Shown here in pieces: positions 7,950 to 60,800 of a stretch of 64,000 nucleotides of DNA. The stretch spans positions 30,604,488-30,668,487 of the forward strand of contig OZ024871.1 of assembly GCA_964017185.1 (NCBI GenBank), read 5' to 3'. Position 1 is the first letter of the stretch. Each line of letters begins with the position of its first letter. A model generated the notes under the pieces. The model was not told the DNA's origin, made no database searches, and saw only the letters and a program-made list of their open reading frames with translations. The position numbers and the translations under genes are program-made. Source of the DNA: Rugalucina vietnamica (taxonomy: Eukaryota > Mollusca > Bivalvia > Lucinida > Lucinidae).

Positions 7950-8205
7950 CTGTCCCTTATCATTGATCAGCTAATGGTCCTCAATGACAAAAACAGGAAA
8001 TTTGGTGGTGATTTTTTTTCTTTTGTAAAAAGCTTGTACTTGTTTTCATAAAGACAAGACAATGACCTTTCCGAAAATGAATGTCAAAGAAGCATCGCTG
8101 GCCAAAAACGTCCCATTATTATTGAAAGTCAAAGAACAGTGTCTCTGTCTCATGATAAATTCATAATCTTTGACATAAAGAGAAAGAAAACAACAATATA
8201 TACCG

Positions 8206-8360
8206 TTTTTTCTGGCCGTCTCTGTCGATCTGTCACTCAGCCCTCACATTCGGGAAACTGACGTCATGAACTTATTTTTTTATTGACCAATCAGAACACT
8301 GCGAGTAGCTGAACTTGACCTTGATTTATTTAGAGGCACACGTGATCCGCCTTTCACGTG
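8206..8360 (-). promoter_or_regulatory. Candidate promoter: CRE plus two CACGTG E-boxes upstream of NCOA4
   Basis: A perfect palindromic CRE (TGACGTCA, 8259-8266) and two E-boxes (CACGTG, 8339-8344 and 8355-8360) lie within about 100 bp, together with a CCAAT-like CCAATCAG near 8288. On the minus strand a candidate donor (AACG then GTATAT) ends at about 8206, which could splice to the acceptor at 6034. CREB/ATF and bHLH-ZIP factors bind such sites. The alternative is that the block belongs to the 5' UTR promoter of the LINE that starts just to the right. Confidence 0.35.
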
Positions 8361-8494
8361 GGCGAAGTCTATACTTCGGCAATTTCCGTGAATATATTGA
8401 CCCAATTAGTGACACTCTTGATCCAATTTCGTATTCGTTCTACGTAGCGCACATGCACCAATAAGCACACAGTGCGCCCGGGACAGTGCGCGAC

Positions 8495-8749
8495 ATGGCT
8501 CACGTACCACACTTTTGCAGTGTCTCTATTCTAAGGGCTAGTCTCAGGTTTAAAGATCACCGCTCTGGTAAGCTCATTCATTTATACATTTTTACTCTTC
8601 TGATAAGTAACTCCTGGGACACCGAAACAAATCCTGGTCCAGAATCCCTTATTGACAATTCTCACTTTCCGTGTGGACTGTGTGATGTCAGTGTTGGATG
8701 GGATGACCGCGGGATTTGTTGCGACTCATGCAACATCTGGTACCATATC
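8495..8749 (+). CDS. LINE ORF, N-terminal part: 2A-like motif and PHD finger
   Basis: The ATG at 8495 opens a frame with a hydrophobic stretch (LIHLYIFTLLIS) followed by DTETNPGP at 8618-8641. This fits the DxExNPGP ribosome-skipping 2A consensus known from APE-type non-LTR retrotransposons. A PHD-type zinc finger follows (CGLC, then CDSC and WYH) and is cut at the W-Y-H step by the 5.45-kb insertion; the frame resumes at 14202. Family knowledge suggests that 2A would separate a short leader from the main protein; here this is inference. A GTG nine bases upstream is also in frame, but ATG is preferred. Confidence 0.75.
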
Positions 8750-11700
8750 ACGGTAGGTAACCAAAACGGATCCTTTCAGAGGAAATGTGCGTTGCCGGTT
8801 CCTTTCGGATGAAGGGACGGTTCCTTTCAGAGGAAATCGTCAATATCGTCGTCGTTGTGTTTAGAGAAACGATTTTTTGAGGTTTTATCGTGAACAATAA
8901 GTGCAAAACGTGTGTGCACGTAATGACGTTGTAATCAAGGTACAATCTCAGCGCTTTCTTTATGTGCACAACCATTTCGTAATTGCTTTCGAGATAAAAA
9001 TGTTGGCCGAGAACTGCTTTTTGTGACGACAGGCAGGCGAAAACCCTTAAATATTTGGGAAAATGTCATTGATCAAAACGTTTTAGCACTTCTTGTCCCT
9101 AGATATTGTATTTGCCAATCTGAAATTAAATGAATAAAGTGGTAATATACTTGTACTTGATAAATAAACGTGAAAAACAACTTCTGTTGGTGGTAACGGT
9201 TCCTCAAGGAGACAGACACAGGATCCTTTCGGAGCTGAGGCTATGGATCCTTCAGGAGGAAATGTGCTTACATGCATTACCTTCACATGATGATACCACT
9301 TCAGACGGTTACTATTCTTTCAATCACCGAAAATGATGACGGGTAACAAAATGTTTGGTCCCAGATAGCAAATATCATTGGGCCAACATTGCATATTGAT
9401 TGGGTAATTGGCATTTGGTTGCGGTCGCATGTACATGATTGGGCCAATGTTGGCGTGGTAGTGCATTCACATGCAATATTTGCCGACGTTGGCCCAACTT
9501 TGGCAAAGGATCTGTTACTGCAACGGATCATGAAAGTGATTTTCTTTCACAGAAACAAGAGTGGCCCAATATTTGTTAGCAATTATACCCAGCAGGCACA
9601 CAGCGCTCTTTGATGTTGTGTGCATGCTGGAATAGTATAGGATTTTTTCTTCTTTTCTTTTTATTTTTCTTTTCAATATAGTGTAGTAATTAATGCATAC
9701 TAGTTTAAGTTCGAATTGAGGGAAAGTGCTAACTGTAGTGACCATGTATGACAAGGCTCATACAAAGGAGCCTGAGAAAATAAATAAAAACTTGTCGTGT
9801 ACACTTTCCGTTGGCCGATGGTTGGCATATCATTGGCCGATTCGTATATGATTAAATACTGACCGGTGTTAATTTGTAATCGATTAATTACTGTCTTTAA
9901 ATCTTATTCAATAAAGAGACAGTCCGGTTTCCTCATAGTTTCAATTTATATATCAATCATAAATAATAATTATGATTTATATGTAAATCACCATCGATGA
10001 TTTTAAAACCATTATCTTAATTAGCAGTTACTTCCTTGATCAGGCCATTTAAACTTACAGTATATCTAATCTGTAAACATTTAGTAAGCAATGAGAGCAA
10101 AATTGAAGTTATTACCTTTTTCACTGTAACACGTCTTTTCATAATATTGTGGTTTATTATTTGCTTCGCTGCTCCAGCCAGAGTACAAGAGTACATCAGT
10201 TGTCATAGCAACGAGAAAAATTTCTCAGGCATGTGAGAATTATTAACAGGTGTTTCGCATGAAGTTTTAGAGAAGTCAGTTTTGCATGTTGGGAAATAGA
10301 CACACTGAGGTTTAGAAGGTAAGTTTTATTTATTTATTATTTTTTTTTTTTTCATTACAAAAGGCAGTTGCGTAAATATAATTGATTTTATATAATATAA
10401 TTCAATACAAGTATTTTATTTCCTTTAGCCATCACACTTCGTTGCAACAAAGAGGTTTTAGTTTTAACATGTATTTCTTAAACAGCTATTCCTTTATGAG
10501 ATAAAATGCACGCGTTAAAATGTTGCATAAATGAGGCTAGTTTATGTTTTTGTCATGGTGCTGTATTCATTCGTTTGTTTTCAGAAGACCAGTCGTCAAA
10601 GTTATCCAGCACAGAGAAAACGAAAAATGAAGAGTTTACCTTCTCCAAAGCCACGAGACCAAGCTCGACTGTCACCGTGGTGCTGCAGATCAAGAAACTG
10701 TACCGAGTGGACATGTGCGATTGAAATACATCGTCCATAGCTTGTAATAAGCACATTCAAACAGTGATGGGCCAACAAAAAATGCAAAACCTCCCGGCAT
10801 TGGCCCAATGTCGAACCAATGTTATGGGCCAAAGATGGGCCGATGAGCAAACGCTAGGTTGGCCCATTCAATATTTACAACCATGGGCCAATCGTGCGGC
10901 GTCCGATGGGCCAATGGAGGGCCAATGTATACGTGCTATCTGGGGTACTACAACTATGTACTGTAAATAACTTAGACGTGTAAAATTAAGAGTGTTTCTG
11001 CTAGTTTGTCAAAAATAAGGTCGGAAAAAAGAACACTTTATGATATTTTCATTACTCCAGATTCTTTTTAATACGTAAGCATTCCACATTGTAACAAACG
11101 AGTTTTTATTTGTAAACTTTAAGGACAAGAAGTAAATAAATAAGGTCCAGGAACTGCATATGTCTATAAATAGATCAGGGGAAACAATAGTAGAATTAGC
11201 GACTCAAAGCCGAAAATCGTTTGATTTTACTAGTTTTGTAGGCTATTTAATGTTTTTACTGGAAGTTTTTTGCTGCTGCTAAAATTTAATAAAAAAACAC
11301 ACGATTAACACGAAAATGATGCAGCTACAGGTAATGTTACAAAATCCACAATCGGTTCGACTTTTGTTTAAATGCAACTAAAGGAGCGAGGTCACGAAGT
11401 GCAGGTTTGCTAGACAGTGCAACTAGAAAATATGGCAATAAGACTAAACGCACAGCCCCTTAAATGTTTATTTTTCGGTACACAAGGAAGTAATTCTACC
11501 ATTTCATGGTTTTGATCAAGCCTTTCGTGGAGCATGCCTTAGGGACCCACTGGACGGTATTACTGGATTGTAGGTGTCTACACACAAATCACACAAATGA
11601 TTTGTTTTCTCCTTGATTGGCGCATTTAGGATTTTGCGGCAACTTGAATGGAATGACGGTATCAGTGGCTATAAAAGATCTTACAGAAAAGAATAGCTAG

Positions 11701-12268
11701 TCAATATGCCATCAAGATATGCTTTAGTGGTAAAATTTCTCCCAAAGGATCCGGTGCCAGATACTCTGATCACAGCCGGTGCCCAAAAAATACAACTTCA
11801 GGTGTGCTCCGAAAGGATCCGTTTCTACATGACTTTCTGGTGATAGTTAATATTTTACTTTTTGTGAGCGAATTAGTGTATTTTGATTGGGTTTTACTGT
11901 GTGGTAGTACAAAAAATATATTTCATATTGTATTTCGAAGACATTTCGTTGCAAATATCTTCATTTGCGATTAAAAAAGCGGTTTTGAGTGCAGTCTGTA
12001 CTGTCGCATTCTTAAAGAATGGTACTTATTTCATTTAAAACGGCGAAAACAAAGAAGCACATTGCGAATTTTCGCTTCAGCTACCAAATTCATTTTGTTG
12101 TGCATTACGTGGACTATTTATTTGAGGATATCACCCAACGGTTGATTATGTTTCTAGCGTCTAAAGGTCTTCGTCTACCAATTTCCTCTGAAAGGAACCG
12201 TCCCTTCCTCCGAAAGGAACGGGAAACGCATATTTCCTCTGAAAGGATCCGTTTTGGTTACCTACCGT
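8749..12268 (+). mobile_element. TIR element copy 1 (interrupted)
   Basis: This is the left member of the dimer. The motif GGATCCTTTC or GGTTCCTTTC recurs in both orientations near the ends, as subterminal transposase-binding repeats often do. A 1585-bp foreign element sits at 9360-10944. Short open frames here recur unchanged in copy 2 and have no recognisable domains. Confidence 0.8.
9360..10944. mobile_element. 1.6-kb TIR element with TTGGGCCAA-type subterminal repeats, GT target duplication
   Basis: The ends are a perfect inverted CCCAGATAGC, and the flanking GT (9358-9359, 10945-10946) is single in the uninterrupted copy 2 (ATGTTTGGTACTAC). TGGGCCAA/TTGGCCCA words recur through the outer 200-300 bp on both sides. 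The interior is AT-rich with no recognisable protein. The 2-bp duplication does not identify a superfamily. Confidence 0.8.
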
Positions 12269-14201
12269 ACGGTAGGTAACCAAAACGGATCCTTTCAGAG
12301 GAAATGTGCGTTGCCGGTTCCTTTCGGATGAAGGGACGGTTCCTTTCAGAGGAAATCGTCAATATCGTCGTCGTTGTGTTTAGAGAAACGATTTTTTGAG
12401 GTTTTATCGTGAACAATAAGTGCAAAACGTGTGTGCACGTAATGACGTTGTAATCAAGGTACAATCTCAGCGCTTTCTTTATGTGCACAACCATTTCGTA
12501 ATTGCTTTCGAGATAAAAATGTTGGCCGAGAACTGCTTTTTGTGACGACAGGCAGGCGAAAACCCTTAAATATTTGGGAAAATGTCATTGATCAAAACGT
12601 TTTAGCACTTCTTGTCCCTAGATATTGTATTTGCCAATCTGAAATTAAATGAATAAAGTGGTAATATACTTGTACTTGATAAATAAACGTGAAAAACAAC
12701 TTCTGTTGGTGGTAACGGTTCCTCAAGGAGACAGACACAGGATCCTTTCGGAGCTGAGGCTATGGATCCTTCAGGAGGAAATGTGCTTACATGCATTACC
12801 TTCACATGATGATACCACTTCAGACGGTTACTATTCTTTCAATCACCGAAAATGATGACGGGTAACAAAATGTTTGGTACTACAACTATGTACTGTAAAT
12901 AACTTAGACGTGTAAAATTAAGAGTGTTTCTGCTAGTTTGTCAAAAATAAGGTCGGAAAAAAGAACACTTTATGATATTTTCATTACTCCAGATTCTTTT
13001 TAATACGTAAGCATTCCACATTGTAACAAACGAGTTTTTATTTGTAAACTTTAAGGACAAGAAGTAAATAAATAAGGTCCAGGAACTGCATATGTCTATA
13101 AATAGATCAGGGGAAACAATAGTAGAATTAGCGACTCAAAGCCGAAAATCGTTTGATTTTACTAGTTTTGTAGGCTATTTAATGTTTTTACTGGAAGTTT
13201 TTTGCTGCTGCTAAAATTTAATAAAAAAACACACGATTAACACGAAAATGATGCAGCTACAGGTAATGTTACAAAATCCACAATCGGTTCGACTTTTGTT
13301 TAAATGCAACTAAAGGAGCGAGGTCACGAAGTGCAGGTTTGCTAGACAGTGCAACTAGAAAATATGGCAATAAGACTAAACGCACAGCCCCTTAAATGTT
13401 TATTTTTCGGTACACAAGGAAGTAATTCTACCATTTCATGGTTTTGATCAAGCCTTTCGTGGAGCATGCCTTAGGGACCCACTGGACGGTATTACTGGAT
13501 TGTAGGTGTCTACACACAAATCACACAAATGATTTGTTTTCTCCTTGATTGGCGCATTTAGGATTTTGCGGCAACTTGAATGGAATGACGGTATCAGTGG
13601 CTATAAAAGATCTTACAGAAAAGAATAGCTAGTCAATATGCCATCAAGATATGCTTTAGTGGTAAAATTTCTCCCAAAGGATCCGGTGCCAGATACTCTG
13701 ATCACAGCCGGTGCCCAAAAAATACAACTTCAGGTGTGCTCCGAAAGGATCCGTTTCTACATGACTTTCTGGTGATAGTTAATATTTTACTTTTTGTGAG
13801 CGAATTAGTGTATTTTGATTGGGTTTTACTGTGTGGTAGTACAAAAAATATATTTCATATTGTATTTCGAAGACATTTCGTTGCAAATATCTTCATTTGC
13901 GATTAAAAAAGCGGTTTTGAGTGCAGTCTGTACTGTCGCATTCTTAAAGAATGGTACTTATTTCATTTAAAACGGCGAAAACAAAGAAGCACATTGCGAA
14001 TTTTCGCTTCAGCTACCAAATTCATTTTGTTGTGCATTACGTGGACTATTTATTTGAGGATATCACCCAACGGTTGATTATGTTTCTAGCGTCTAAAGGT
14101 CTTCGTCTACCAATTTCCTCTGAAAGGAACCGTCCCTTCCTCCGAAAGGAACGGGAAACGCATATTTCCTCTGAAAGGATCCGTTTTGGTTACCTACCGT
14201 G
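12269..14201 (+). mobile_element. TIR element copy 2 (uninterrupted)
   Basis: This is the right member of the dimer and contains the empty site for the 9360-10944 element. Its terminal inverted repeats extend about 100 bp with a few mismatches. It lacks only the first base (C) of the ideal left terminus because of the fused junction. Confidence 0.8.
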
Positions 14202-16409
14202 CATATAGACTGTCAAGGCATGACTTCAACTATGTATGGGATTTACAATAAATCACTTAGCAAAAGTATAGCATGGGAATGCATACGTTGTGGAATGCCA
14301 AACTTTTCCACTTCGTTGTTTGACACTACAGCTTCTCTTGAGATATCCAACAGATTTGAGTCCCTTTCGTCCCTGTCCGAGCCTGACAGTCCGATACCAG
14401 ACAATATTGCCCCCCCCAATGCAGCTTCTTCGCCTATTGTGCAAACAAAAGAAGCAAAACCCAGGACCAAAAGGGCGGTCCTGAACCACCCCTTGAGAAT
14501 TTTGATCATGAATTGTCAGTCAATTAAAAATAAAAAGGCTGAAATTCACACTGTCATAGAATCGGCTAAACCTGACATCATATTGGGGAATGAGTCATGG
14601 TTAACCCCAGACATTAAAAACTCAGAGATTTTTCCAGATTCCTTTGATGCTATCCGGAAAGACAGAGCTAGTGATGCGCATGGTGGTGTCTTCATTGCTT
14701 TTAGGCGTGATCTTCTCTGTACTGATGCTCCGGAATTGGACACCAAGTGCGAAATAATTTGGTGTAAGTTGAACATTATTGGATGTAGGACTTTGTACCT
14801 TGGATCATTCTATCGTCCCCCTAGGTTCCCAACTCAGGAGCTTGAACTGAAATACCTTGAGGATTTTAATACTTCACTTTCTCGGATTATGTCAAATAAA
14901 AATGCCCATGTTCTTGTAGGCGGAGACTTCAATTGTGGTGATATTGAGTGGAGCACAATGCAGGTACCCGAGGGGGTCCCAAAGAGGCCAGTTCAGACTA
15001 AACTTGTGGAGATAATACAGGATCACTGCCTCTCCCAAATGGTAAATATACACACCCGAGAAGACAAGACCCTTGATTTACTCTTCACTAACTCGCCATC
15101 CCCAATTAACCGTGTTAAAGGGATGCCCCCGATCGGCAAAGCAGATCATGACATTGTCTATATTGAATATGACATAAAGGCTAAACGGGTTCAGCAGGCC
15201 CCGCGTAAGATTTTCCTATATAAACGAGCGGATATGGACGGTCTCCATGACCATCTAGCGCGCTATAGGGATTCGTTCCTTTCAACTGACCATAGTCAGG
15301 TGTCAGTCAATGACATGTGGGTCAGTTTTAAGTCGGAGGTTCTCTCGGCTATTGAAAGGTTTATTCCATCAAAAATGACCAAGACAAAATATAGCTTACC
15401 ATGGATCGATAGCTCGATCAAACGCTTGATAAGGAAACGTGATAAACTTTACTTTCGTGCTCGCAAGTCAAGCAGCCCTGACATTAAGAACCATTACAAA
15501 CGGTTCAGAGCACATGTTCAAAAGAGCATTAGAGATGCATATTGGAAGCATATTACCAATATCTTCTCCTTTGAAAATGATAACCCTGATCCCGATTGTC
15601 CCCGAAAAAATGAAAAGGCAAAAAAGTTTTGGTCATTTGTCAAGTCCCTAAAGAAAGACGCGTCTGGGATCAATACTCTTAGAGAAAATGGTATCTTGAA
15701 GACTGACACTTTGGATAAGGCTAATATTTGTAATAGGCAGTTTCAGTCAGCCTTCACTCGCGAATCAGATGATGAAATCCCCTCCAAAGGCACAAGTCCT
15801 TTCACCGCTATGGGTGAAATTACAGTTGACCCCAATGGGGTCATTAAACTGTTGAATAACTTGAATATACATAAGGCGCCTGGGCCAGATGGCCTGAGTG
15901 CTAGGGTGTTGAAGGAATGTAGTTCTGAAATTGCTCCTGTACTGACCTATATCTTCAATGAGTCGCTTGCTCAGGGTGCTGTACCAGACGATTGGCGACA
16001 GGCAAATGTAGCCCCGGTATTTAAGAAAGGTGAGAAATACGATGCAGCTAATTATCGACCGGTGTCGCTTACTTGTATCTGTTGCAAAACTCTAGAGCAT
16101 ATAATAGTCAGCAACATAAACAAACACTTGGCTCTTGAAAACATTCTTGCTGACTGTCAGCATGGGTTCCGAAGTCAAAGGTCTTGCGAAACCCAGTTAG
16201 TTCAGTTTTATCATGATTTGGTTAGTAATCTGGACCGAGCAGTGGGTCGTGGCCACAGGCAGACGGATGTGATTGTCATGGACTTCGCTAAGGCCTTTGA
16301 CAAGGTCCCACATAAAAGGTTATTATACAAACTTGACTTCTACGGGATTAGAGGATCTACACATAAGTGGATCGACTCGTGGCTCTCTGAGCGCTCTCAA
16401 AAAGTGGTA
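14202..16409 (+). CDS. LINE ORF, middle part: end of PHD finger, endonuclease, N-terminal reverse transcriptase
   Basis: The frame resumes at CAT-ATA (H-I) and runs 736 codons to the TA-MITE. After the rest of the PHD finger (WECIRCG) comes a linker, then the APE-like endonuclease: LRILIMNCQSIKNKK, the catalytic E in GNESWLTPD, GGDFNCGDIEWS, and the D-H pair in GKADHDIVY. The reverse transcriptase follows with HKAPGPDGLSARVLKE, DWRQANVAPVFKKG, YRPVSLTCICCK, QHGFRSQRSC and the first catalytic aspartate in MDFAKAFDKVPH. Endonuclease and polymerase residues look intact. The frame stops only because of the 209-bp insertion at 16410. Confidence 0.9.
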
Positions 16410-16618
16410 CTGTAAATCCGGAAATTTTCGCGAGAACTTAATTTTCGCTAATATTCGCGAATTCGTTGCCTCGCGAAAATAAAGTTATCGCTAATTATGA
16501 ATTACAATAAGCTTTATAGACGGTATGAGTACCCGTTCGCGAATTCAAAGTCTCGCTAATAATTAGGAAATCGAAAATTCGCGAAATAAAAGTCACGCGA
16601 AAATTTCCGAACTTACAG
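16410..16618. mobile_element. 209-bp TA-flanked MITE (mariner/Tc1-like)
   Basis: Termini CTGTAAATCCGGAAATTTTC and CTGTAAGTTCGGAAATTTTC (read from the right end) form inverted repeats. TA is duplicated at 16408-16409 and 16619-16620, and the second LINE copy shows the empty site (GTGGTATTAGATGG). TTCGCG words recur inside. TA duplication is the hallmark of mariner/Tc1 mobilisation. Confidence 0.9.
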
Positions 16619-57872: not shown

Positions 57873-60800
57873 TTAATTCACCTTAAAAGTGGACAATTCT
57901 GCAATGTCTTTCACTGCACTAACTGTTTTGTCATATGAAGATGTCTTCACATGCTCAACTAAAACCTCATTTTTATCCATCGCATGCCCATGTACTTTCT
58001 GTAGATGTAACCTTAATGTCCGAGGCTGAATGAACTTTTTCGCGCAATATTTGCAGTCCATGCCTTCCCCAGTGTGGCTCCGTTCATGACAGCGTAAATT
58101 ACTCTTGTCATTAAATGATTTTCCACAGTAACCGCACGGGTACGGTTTCAAGCCTTGATGTATGAGATGATGCCGACGAAGGGATGTCGTGTCAGTGTAC
58201 AGCTTCTGACATAGCTCACAACTGTGAAGACGGATGGTAGTCCGGCGTTCTATATCCTCTTTCTGATCTGGATGAACTTTGATGAGGTGTGTTTTGTAGG
58301 ATTTGACGGATTGGGACTGGTGTTCACAGTACATGCAGGGCCATGTGTTTTTGCCCGTGTGACGTCGCCGATGGGCCGCGAGACTGTTGGTGTTTTTGAA
58401 AGTCTGACCACACTTATCACAGACGTAGCACTGGTCTTGATTGTGAGTTACACGGTGAACACGCAGGCCCATCAAGGTTGAGAAAAATTTACCACATTCC
58501 TGAAACAGATATGTGAAACCATGTTATAATAATGATGTTATTTACAATAGGAACTACAGGTAAATAACCATTTGGGATACATGAAATGTCCATGTTATAC
58601 TGAGAACAGTGTTATAGTAAGGTGAATTGTAATGTTGAACTGAAATTGATATGCCTATCTTTCTAGTTCCGACATTTTAATGTGACAAAAAAAATGAGTA
58701 TCTAAAATTAAAACTATTAAGCCTAAACCTGAGAGAATTCATACACAAGATACAACAGGAATCAAAGTGAAGACTCCTATCTGATTGTCTAAGGATCAGA
58801 ATGTTCCTCTGTCTGACCTGGTCCCGAGTTTATATAACTTTTTCATGCTCAACTCAGCTGAGCATGAAATTCAAACTGCTCATAATAACAGAAATTGGTT
58901 GAAATTTCGGGTTAAGATTGCCAAAGCATGTAATTCATCCTGCTTATTAATGTTAAAATGCCAACAATTGTTGGCATTTTAACATTTATGAGCAGGATAA
59001 AGTTTAGTCTCAGTCGAGCTGAGCATGAAAGAAGTTTTATAACCTCTGGACCTGGTCTGCACTTGCCAAGTCATACCTGTTGAAAATTTGTTTTCATATG
59101 ACTGCAAGTAAATATTCTAATAGTGAAGTTGGTATGTCTAATTAAGGATTGAAATTCACATTTTAGCTTTCACTGGATGATGAAAAACATTAGGCTGTTT
59201 TAATGTCTGTGAAGCCCGAAGGGCTTCTCGGAGACATTAAAACAACTAATGTTTTTCATCATCCAGTGAAAGCTAAAATCTGAATTTCAATACTTATATT
59301 TACATTTTATATTATCAATCAAGTATCAGATTTTTAATTGCACATATCATCGCTCATTTTCATGTTATTTGACATTTAATCCTACTTAACGTAATTTGGG
59401 AACAGCCAAAACGTCAATTTTCGCGCTTAACATCATGGCGATATGCGACCGACGTCACGTCAACAAGAGCAAACAAACAATGTCACTGGCTGGGTTTGAC
59501 GTCGCCCCGCCCATAGGTGTGGCTTCTAGATCACGTGACTTAATGTTTTTCATTGGGAAATGAAGAACATCAAGAAAGATACTTTCATCTAGGGCGACTG
59601 CAATGAAAATGTAAATATTCATAATTGAGCAGCATCATGAGAAAAATGGATTTTGCTTCTGCAAAAACCAAAGCTCAGATCAGCTGTGCAGTATCTGCAC
59701 AGCAAGTCAGCACCTTTGTTTTCTCATTACAAATAGTTCAAGATCTCTTCTACTTATATAAACCAGAGGACCAATGGTCCTGTAAACGCTCACCTGAGAT
59801 CTGCTGCATATACCAATAAACATGTTTGAATATTATGGTATTTAACTCCAGTGCAGGGGCAGATGAAGCCCTTGGGCCATTTTCTTTTTTCAGAATCTTC
59901 AATATTCTGTCCATTTGCCAGTTTCCTGCTGGCTTTTCCCTTCAAATGACATTTTAACAGTTTTCCCAATTCAAATGCATAGGCAACCCATGTTGACCTT
60001 GCCATAACTTGGTCAAGGTCATCACAGGGTCATGATTTATATACACATTGGAGTACTTTAGCCATCGATGCTTCACGCCAAGTTTCCTTGAAATCAGTCT
60101 ATTGGTTTCAGAGAAGAAGATTTTTGATGGGTTTTTACCATATATGGGCATGGCAGCCATCTTTGTCATGTGACCTAGATTATTTATATCCATTCTATAG
60201 ATGCTTCACATAAAATTTGGCTTTGTTTGGCCGAGCGGTTTCAGAGGTGAAGATGTTTGAATATTATGGAAATATACATGTATATTGCAGCGGGGTGGGG
60301 GCACATGAGCCCCTGGGGTCCAAATTTTTTTCAGAATCATTAATATTCAGTCCTACTGCCCATTTTCTGCAAGACTTTCACTTTAAATTACATTTTAAAA
60401 GTTTTCCCCATTCAAATGCATTGGCGACCTATGTTGACCTTGCTGTAAAATAGGTCATGGTCATCACAGGGTCATGATTTATATATACATTGTAGTGCTT
60501 GAGCCATCGATGCTTCATGCCAAGTTTTGTTGAAATCAAACCACTGGTTCTGGAGAAGAAAATTTTTGAAGGGTTTTTACCATATATGGGCATGACGGCC
60601 ATCTTGGTCATGTGACTTGGATTTTCTATATACATATTTGTTACCCCTTCCTATTGATGCTTCAGATAAAATTTGGCTTTGATTGGCCAAGTGGTTTCAG
60701 AGGAGAAGACATTTGAATATTATGGGGATATACATGTATATTGCCCCGAGGTGGGGCCACATGAGCCCCTGGGGTCCAAATTTTTTCAGAATCATTAATA

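Follow-up and report, generated by a model that had tools for sequence, protein, structure and literature searches.

The window analysed here is a stretch of 64,000 nucleotides from a eukaryotic genome assembly of 1.09 Gb in 47 contigs (contig 3, positions 30604488–30668487), and all structures described were read from the assembly sequence. Positions 8749–14201 of the window hold two direct copies of one DNA transposon, arranged head to tail inside one duplication of the target sequence CATAT (8744–8748 on the left and 14202–14206 on the right). Both copies lie on the forward strand. Copy 1 (8749–12268) begins with an intact left end, CACGG, carries an insert at 9360–10944, and stops at its inner right end with CCGT, without the final G. 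Copy 2 (12269–14201) is uninterrupted; it starts at its inner left end with ACGG, without the first C, and finishes with an intact right end, CCGTG. The two inner ends meet in a fused joint, CCGT/ACGG, at 12268–12269, and there is neither a target duplication nor a spacer between the units. A reading of this dimer as a product of joined element ends is well supported.

A preliminary description of this stretch had reported two copies of a 1933-bp element in a single CATAT duplication. The two copies and the single duplication are as described, but the full unit of the element is 1934 bp (CACGG...CCGTG); the units of the dimer each measure 1933 bp because one end of each is the shortened inner end. 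The copies share an identical prefix of 610 bp and an identical suffix of 1325 bp. When the insert and its 2-bp duplication are left out they differ at 0 of 1932 common positions, which bears out the earlier remark that no mismatch had been noticed.

The terminal inverted repeats are 88 bp long and 95% alike. At the joint, where the 88-bp arms span 12181–12356, they form a perfect palindrome of 74 bp with 37-bp arms (12232–12305); no other even-centred perfect palindrome in the window is as long. This had been regarded as unusual in itself, but 88-bp inverted repeats joined end to end always make a palindrome, and it needs no further explanation.

The dimer splits a copy of a long interspersed nuclear element (LINE), also on the forward strand, with its left part at 8495–8748 and its right part at 14207–16415, the latter compared with other copies over 14207–15760. 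The open reading frame (ORF) of the LINE reads from 14199 to 16415 and matches endonuclease and reverse-transcriptase families. When the two flanks are joined with one CATAT, the resulting empty site matches at 122 of 122 bases in 40 of the 40 places scored (189 candidates at first look), and a single CATAT stands at the empty site in all 40 of these host-LINE copies. This match fixes the insertion point and shows that there was no other loss or gain at the outer ends. Within the dimer there is no ORF longer than 86 amino acids (aa), and one frame of 108 aa enters from the LINE. Four short ORFs of the element, compared with Pfam, gave only PPR_3, under its curated cut-off (E 0.014). On the basis of the lack of a long ORF and of a Pfam match above the cut-off, the element is taken to be non-autonomous. 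Comparison of positions 8000–15000 with Rfam gave no family at gathering score.

The insert found in copy 1 only is 1585 bp long and belongs to another repeat family, with ends CCCAGATAGC...GCTATCTGGG. It is flanked by a duplicated GT (9358–9359 and 10945–10946), or by a 3-bp duplication, GGT, if it is taken to end one G earlier. It has full-length relatives elsewhere in the genome, the nearest being 96% identical among the best 40 of 250 candidates scored. A perfect 74-bp palindrome together with identical repeats of 1.9 kb is hard to assemble, and the dimer could in principle be an artefact of the library or the assembly, with only one unit present, or with a joint from an extrachromosomal molecule that was wrongly joined to the chromosome. 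We consider this improbable: the insert, with a duplication of its own, distinguishes the two units, a false duplication of a haplotype should have put LINE sequence between them, and the joint consists of a specific loss of 1 bp on each side.

The true ends of the element are given by its solo copies. With at most 2 mismatches, the end pattern occurs in the genome 120 times in forward and 117 times in reverse orientation, and 100 of these 237 ends were listed, all on contigs 1–6. Among 52 solo loci examined by script, 44 were scored as full-length, and all 44 have the ends CAC...GTG. For 17 of them this is subject to the caveat that they were chosen with a pattern which includes the terminal C; the other 27 were chosen from similarity matches that begin at ACGG and are an independent test of the terminal bases. 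The terminal C and G are therefore part of the element, and the joint CCGT/ACGG is short by one base per end. The preliminary description was thus correct that exactly the central two bases are missing. It had also named solo copies with another length of duplication as a finding that would speak against it. This objection did not arise, although a few copies do deviate: the target duplication is 5 bp in 39 of the 44, 6 bp in four (L018, L019, L025 and L033) and 7 bp in one (L028). Of the loci left unscored, L031, L032 and L049 have both ends clean and 5-bp duplications, L071 and L072 have by eye a CCATG end in place of CCGTG and 5-bp duplications, and L012, L020 and L064 have one end absent or altered. 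Two solo copies at different sites, L062 (contig 9:42854786) and L063 (contig 4:69910066), are identical over 1937 bp and have different duplications, AAGAA and AACTA respectively, and the family has thus moved recently.

Recent activity of this kind, with two identical copies at different sites, is also the background against which two independent insertions side by side might be imagined. Such insertions would, however, leave a duplication between the units as well as full ends; neither is present, and two bases are gone. The joint excludes them unless a later deletion took exactly the spacer and one base from each end, which we find scarcely credible. The preliminary description had argued against independent insertions, and we agree: there is no duplication or spacer between the units, and the units are identical and share four private substitutions (described below). 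An ordinary tandem duplication, caused by replication slippage or microhomology repair and independent of the transposon ends, would give the same structure if it took in the 1932-bp segment ACGG...CCGT. Both of its breakpoints would then fall 1 bp inside the ends by chance, and by eye there is no microhomology at the breakpoint bases; we consider this origin highly improbable.

The age of the doubling was estimated from an alignment of 41 sequences, which includes 33 solo copies at most 4% from the dimer and from which columns rich in gaps were excluded. The substitution at 12505 is common to both units and absent from the 33 close solo copies. There are three others of the same type, at 13494, 13927 and 14054, each with its equivalent in copy 1, making a total of four shared private substitutions. 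No substitution is private to one unit of the dimer. The solo copies have 0–27 private substitutions each, with a median of 9, the two zeros being one mutually identical pair. Among the 41 aligned sequences, the nearest solo copy has 12 differences from the dimer units, and besides the units themselves no copy is more than 99% identical among the best 40 of 1062 candidates scored. Set against six others (7 LINE copies in total), the copy of the host LINE shows 3 private substitutions over 1808 columns, an upper guess in view of so small a set. About 18 differences between the units would be expected if they were as old as the median solo copy, and about 6 if they were as old as the LINE, against 0 observed. 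It follows, unless conversion erased the differences, that the doubling was recent and, as far as so rough a measure goes, clearly postdates the arrival of the LINE; on the sequence evidence, then, the dimer would be either young or homogenised between its units. The four shared private substitutions would fit a solo copy that was doubled later, and a dimer that moved in from an aged source could also account for them.

The preliminary description had suggested a genome search for other dimers, and when this was run with two patterns, allowing 0–30 bp between the ends, only the joint in the window was found. The pattern GGTTACCTACCG, 0–30 bp, CGGTAGGTAACC occurs at one place in the assembly, and a looser pattern, GTWACCTACC, 0–30 bp, GGTAGGTWAC, at the same single place; the reversed control gave 0 for each. 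Because both ends begin alike, the two patterns also catch inverted dimers and pairs split by a 5-bp duplication. They miss joints that are mutated in the 10–12 bp required, or that have lost more than that. Ends with a base other than A after CACGGTAGGTAACC occur at one place, equal to the reversed control per strand, so that exactly this 14-bp tip was seen in no other family. In open PMC papers, searched only with words for tandem dimers in one target site duplication and for joined, head-to-tail or multimeric elements, no chromosomal dimer of such a kind is described.

These searches bear on the idea that the dimer was formed elsewhere, by a joint between chromatids or by way of a circle, and then moved as a composite from its outer ends into the CATAT of the LINE. 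The outer ends CAC...GTG are intact and the 5-bp duplication is clean, as such a move would leave them, and the four shared private substitutions could stem from an aged source. No other joint was found in the assembly by the two patterns; the absence of another dimer is, however, no objection, because cut-and-paste transposition leaves no source copy. The move requires one extra step, and on balance we think it unlikely.

On the basis of these observations, our best reading, with a probability of roughly 0.45, is that one element, present on two chromatids, was cut at its facing ends, which were then fused in place. A solo copy of the non-autonomous CAC...GTG transposon would have been resident in the LINE, flanked by its duplicated CATAT. 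Once the DNA had replicated, or where homologs were paired, a transposase supplied in trans would have cut one chromatid at the right end of the element and the other at the left end. End-joining would then have fused these two ends, with no insertion elsewhere and with the loss of 1 bp from each, to give CCGT/ACGG; the resulting pair of identical units, lying head to tail, would have kept its outer ends and remained within one target duplication. The structure, the identity of the units, the true ends, the empty site and the lack of a second joint by the two patterns are observed, whereas the identity of the acting transposase, the two-chromatid step and the end-joining are what we infer in this scheme.

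Several features are consistent with it. The outer ends are intact within one target site duplication and each inner end lacks 1 bp; the four private substitutions are present in both units and none is specific to one unit, as expected from one resident copy; and the two patterns found no other joint in the assembly that could be a source. The route is also the shortest way to the required joint of right end to left end with the outer ends untouched.

Other points weigh against it. Gene conversion between the units could erase differences and make the event look young. The solo copies L062 and L063 are also identical, at different sites, and identity alone is therefore no proof of a local origin. 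The figure for the nearest copy rests on the best 40 of 1062 candidates and on 41 aligned sequences. Copy 1 has gained a 1585-bp insert that is absent from copy 2, and must have had time, or an allele, for it. Cutting in trans is assumed because no transposase for the family of the element was identified. In the hobo and Hermes tables consulted in PMC2803484 there is no joint with exactly one base lost from both ends, while large one-sided losses are common, so that the symmetric loss seen here is without exact precedent in those tables. Finally, the same structure would be produced by a circle recombining with a resident copy.

In that alternative, the chief rival to our reading, the ends of an excised element would be joined into a circle with 1 bp lost from each, followed by a single crossover with a sister or homologous copy in the LINE. 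The outcome has identical units and intact outer ends, and requires no transposase to act on a joint that is short of its terminal C and G. Circles with joined ends were readily recovered from hobo and Hermes, according to parts of PMC2803484. The same parts report that integration in vivo was not detected for Hermes circles with 0–37 bp between the ends, and recombination therefore fits better than plain re-insertion of a circle. The route takes two events instead of one, and no trace distinguishes it from a direct joint; we regard it as possible but somewhat unlikely. The preliminary description had proposed a dimer or a product of joined ends. The head-to-tail joint and the loss of 1 bp per end uphold the joining of ends, and would fit both the insertion of a ready-made dimer and its formation in place.

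It is useful to compare the dimer with known systems. As a joined-end product of cut-and-paste transposition it shows a direct end joint, small end losses and no duplication between the copies, and cutting by a transposase would be the presumed cause. A close structural likeness is to the episomes of the hAT elements Hermes and hobo, in which, in the data presented in parts of PMC2803484, left and right ends are joined head to tail either perfectly, with small or large losses, or with added bases. Of the 38 hobo joints from injected embryos in that source, 3 were perfect; extra bases stood in 12, and in 23 at least one of the two terminal repeats was gone, the losses ranging from a few bp to hundreds. 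Those joints are in extrachromosomal circles, whereas that of the dimer lies between two chromosomal copies, and the likeness is structural and does not imply kinship. In maize, Ac/Ds transposition can combine a 5' end with the 3' end of a different copy, the two lying on sister chromatids (described in a section of PMC3744419). Such alternative transposition leaves duplicated structures, as in the dimer, but the Ac/Ds ends insert into a target with 8-bp duplications, whereas in the dimer one end is joined to the other and the pair as a whole has a single target duplication (sections of PMC3744419 and PMC4270019). The tandem dimers of IS30 likewise have two head-to-tail copies with joined inverted repeats; according to part of PMC9333248 their joints are active intermediates of copy-out-paste-in transposition, whereas the joint described here is without its terminal bases and predicted to be inert.

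The V(D)J signal joint, ProtoRAG and Transib share with the dimer CAC ends joined head to head and 5-bp duplications on insertion (parts of PMC8355894 and PMC8289069). The dimer differs from them, as they are portrayed there, in the loss of one base per end, in AT-rich targets, and in that no Transib transposase was found with the two probes described below. Our preferred reading, the fusion of facing ends on two chromatids, resembles a V(D)J signal joint formed in trans, but with the joined ends staying in the chromosome. Taken further, this might have been a signal-joint-like fusion in trans between sister chromatids that was kept in a germline chromosome, where the CAC cutting site was lost and two mobile units became one composite with a locked centre. 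We put this forward as a tentative idea and are inclined to doubt it; if true, it would mark the beginning of a change from dispersed transposon to tandem array. Because the terminal C and G are gone, the inner joint is predicted to be a poor substrate for a transposase, and the pair could then be mobilised from its outer ends alone, as a single composite element.

The dimer is a clean and roughly dated outcome of transposition by self-joining, most probably the scar left by the repair of a failed transposition. It belongs, as a variant, with processes already known and does not amount to a system of a new kind. Joined ends are usually met as circles in assays; here they are found in a chromosome, with the empty site, the family and the ends known. 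The structure suggests how, in a simple way, a dispersed DNA transposon could begin a tandem array or a composite element. Its signature, joined ends with one or two bases lost inside one outer duplication, can be searched for in any genome to give the frequency of self-joining.

The family to which the element belongs was analysed further. Its CAC...GTG ends and 5-bp duplications recall Transib, and the length of the duplication also recalls hAT5. Ends beginning with CAC are present in all 44 full-length copies, including the 27 chosen without the terminal base, and a 5-bp duplication in 39 of the 44 as well as in the dimer (CATAT). Parts of PMC1852546 and PMC4079207 are relevant to the dimer only through a Transib-like element with a 5-bp duplication. 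Transib and RAG have GC-biased target sites, as stated in a part of PMC8289069. No such bias is seen here: over 43 five-bp duplications, 58 of 215 bases (27%) are G or C. The probe used for a Transib transposase was a 75-aa piece of the solved transposase 6pqn, which we take to be that of Transib. It matches at 2 places in the genome, both within RAG1-like genes, and PF12940 matches at 4; neither search found a Transib transposase, the ends considered for a partner being the 100 of 237 listed on contigs 1–6. The protostome RAG-like consensus for the terminal inverted repeat is given as CACTWMCAAACKTYKBB in a part of PMC7204232, whereas the ends of the element are CACGGTAGGTAACC. For hAT5, a 5-bp target duplication is reported (part of PMC12730594), the length found here in 39 of 44 copies. 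The hAT dimer domain occurs at 116 places (best 150 of 199 candidates scored), none of them, by eye, between paired ends among the 100 of 237 ends listed on contigs 1–6.

Among the same listed ends there are, besides the dimer, eight pairs that are wider than a normal copy. Seven of these (2.3 to 5.1 kb; L030–L036) contain no frame longer than 178 aa and, by eye, no transposase among the frames longer than 150 aa, which were viewed; one frame in L034 resembles by eye a reverse transcriptase. The extra DNA in the seven is largely repeated within or between these copies. The eighth pair (contig 4:4624476–4649166; L073 and L074) is 24.7 kb long, has ATTAA at either side and was read at its ends only. 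Its left end matches only about the first 130 positions of the family and its right end matches over 583 bp at 93%. It is possibly a long or autonomous relative, or a set of nested insertions, and is the most promising location for the family's transposase.

The genome also contains an apparently complete RAG-like transposon on contig 9 (34092192–34104836; L057, L050 and L058). It has a 782-aa RAG1-like ORF with a RING domain and a RAG1 core, which matches the RAG1L chain 6b40, presumably from amphioxus, at 1.4e-194. Convergent with this is a Kelch ORF of 501 aa, which matches PHD weakly. The transposon is bounded by CACATACAAAGTTGTA / CACATACAAACTTCCT ends with ATTTT on both sides. A screen of 6760 CAC/GTG pairs around the RAG-like gene pair left two in which the 5-bp duplications agreed and 9 or more of 16 end bases matched, and the better of these, with 12 of 16 bases, has CACATACAAA-type ends and ATTTT. 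These ends are other than those of the element in the dimer, and the RAG-like transposon was set aside as its mover on account of this mismatch. A second RAG1-like gene, on contig 11 (21950802–21958850; L051 and L052), is broken in two pieces, one of which has an internal stop.

A further region on contig 1 (23724500–23734499; L056) has ORFs whose C-terminal part is weakly RAG1-like (hmmscan E 0.0035, below the cut-off) and which sit between long inverted repeats rich in GGGACC. The possible transposase at contig 1:23729571, with its weak RAG1-like part, was set aside, the flanking inverted repeats being unlike those of the element's family. Another repeat, centred on a perfect palindrome, GCCAACAATTGTTGGC, occurs twice in the window itself, about 57 kb apart, with the palindromes at 1716–1759 (22-bp arms) and 58949–58986 (19-bp arms).

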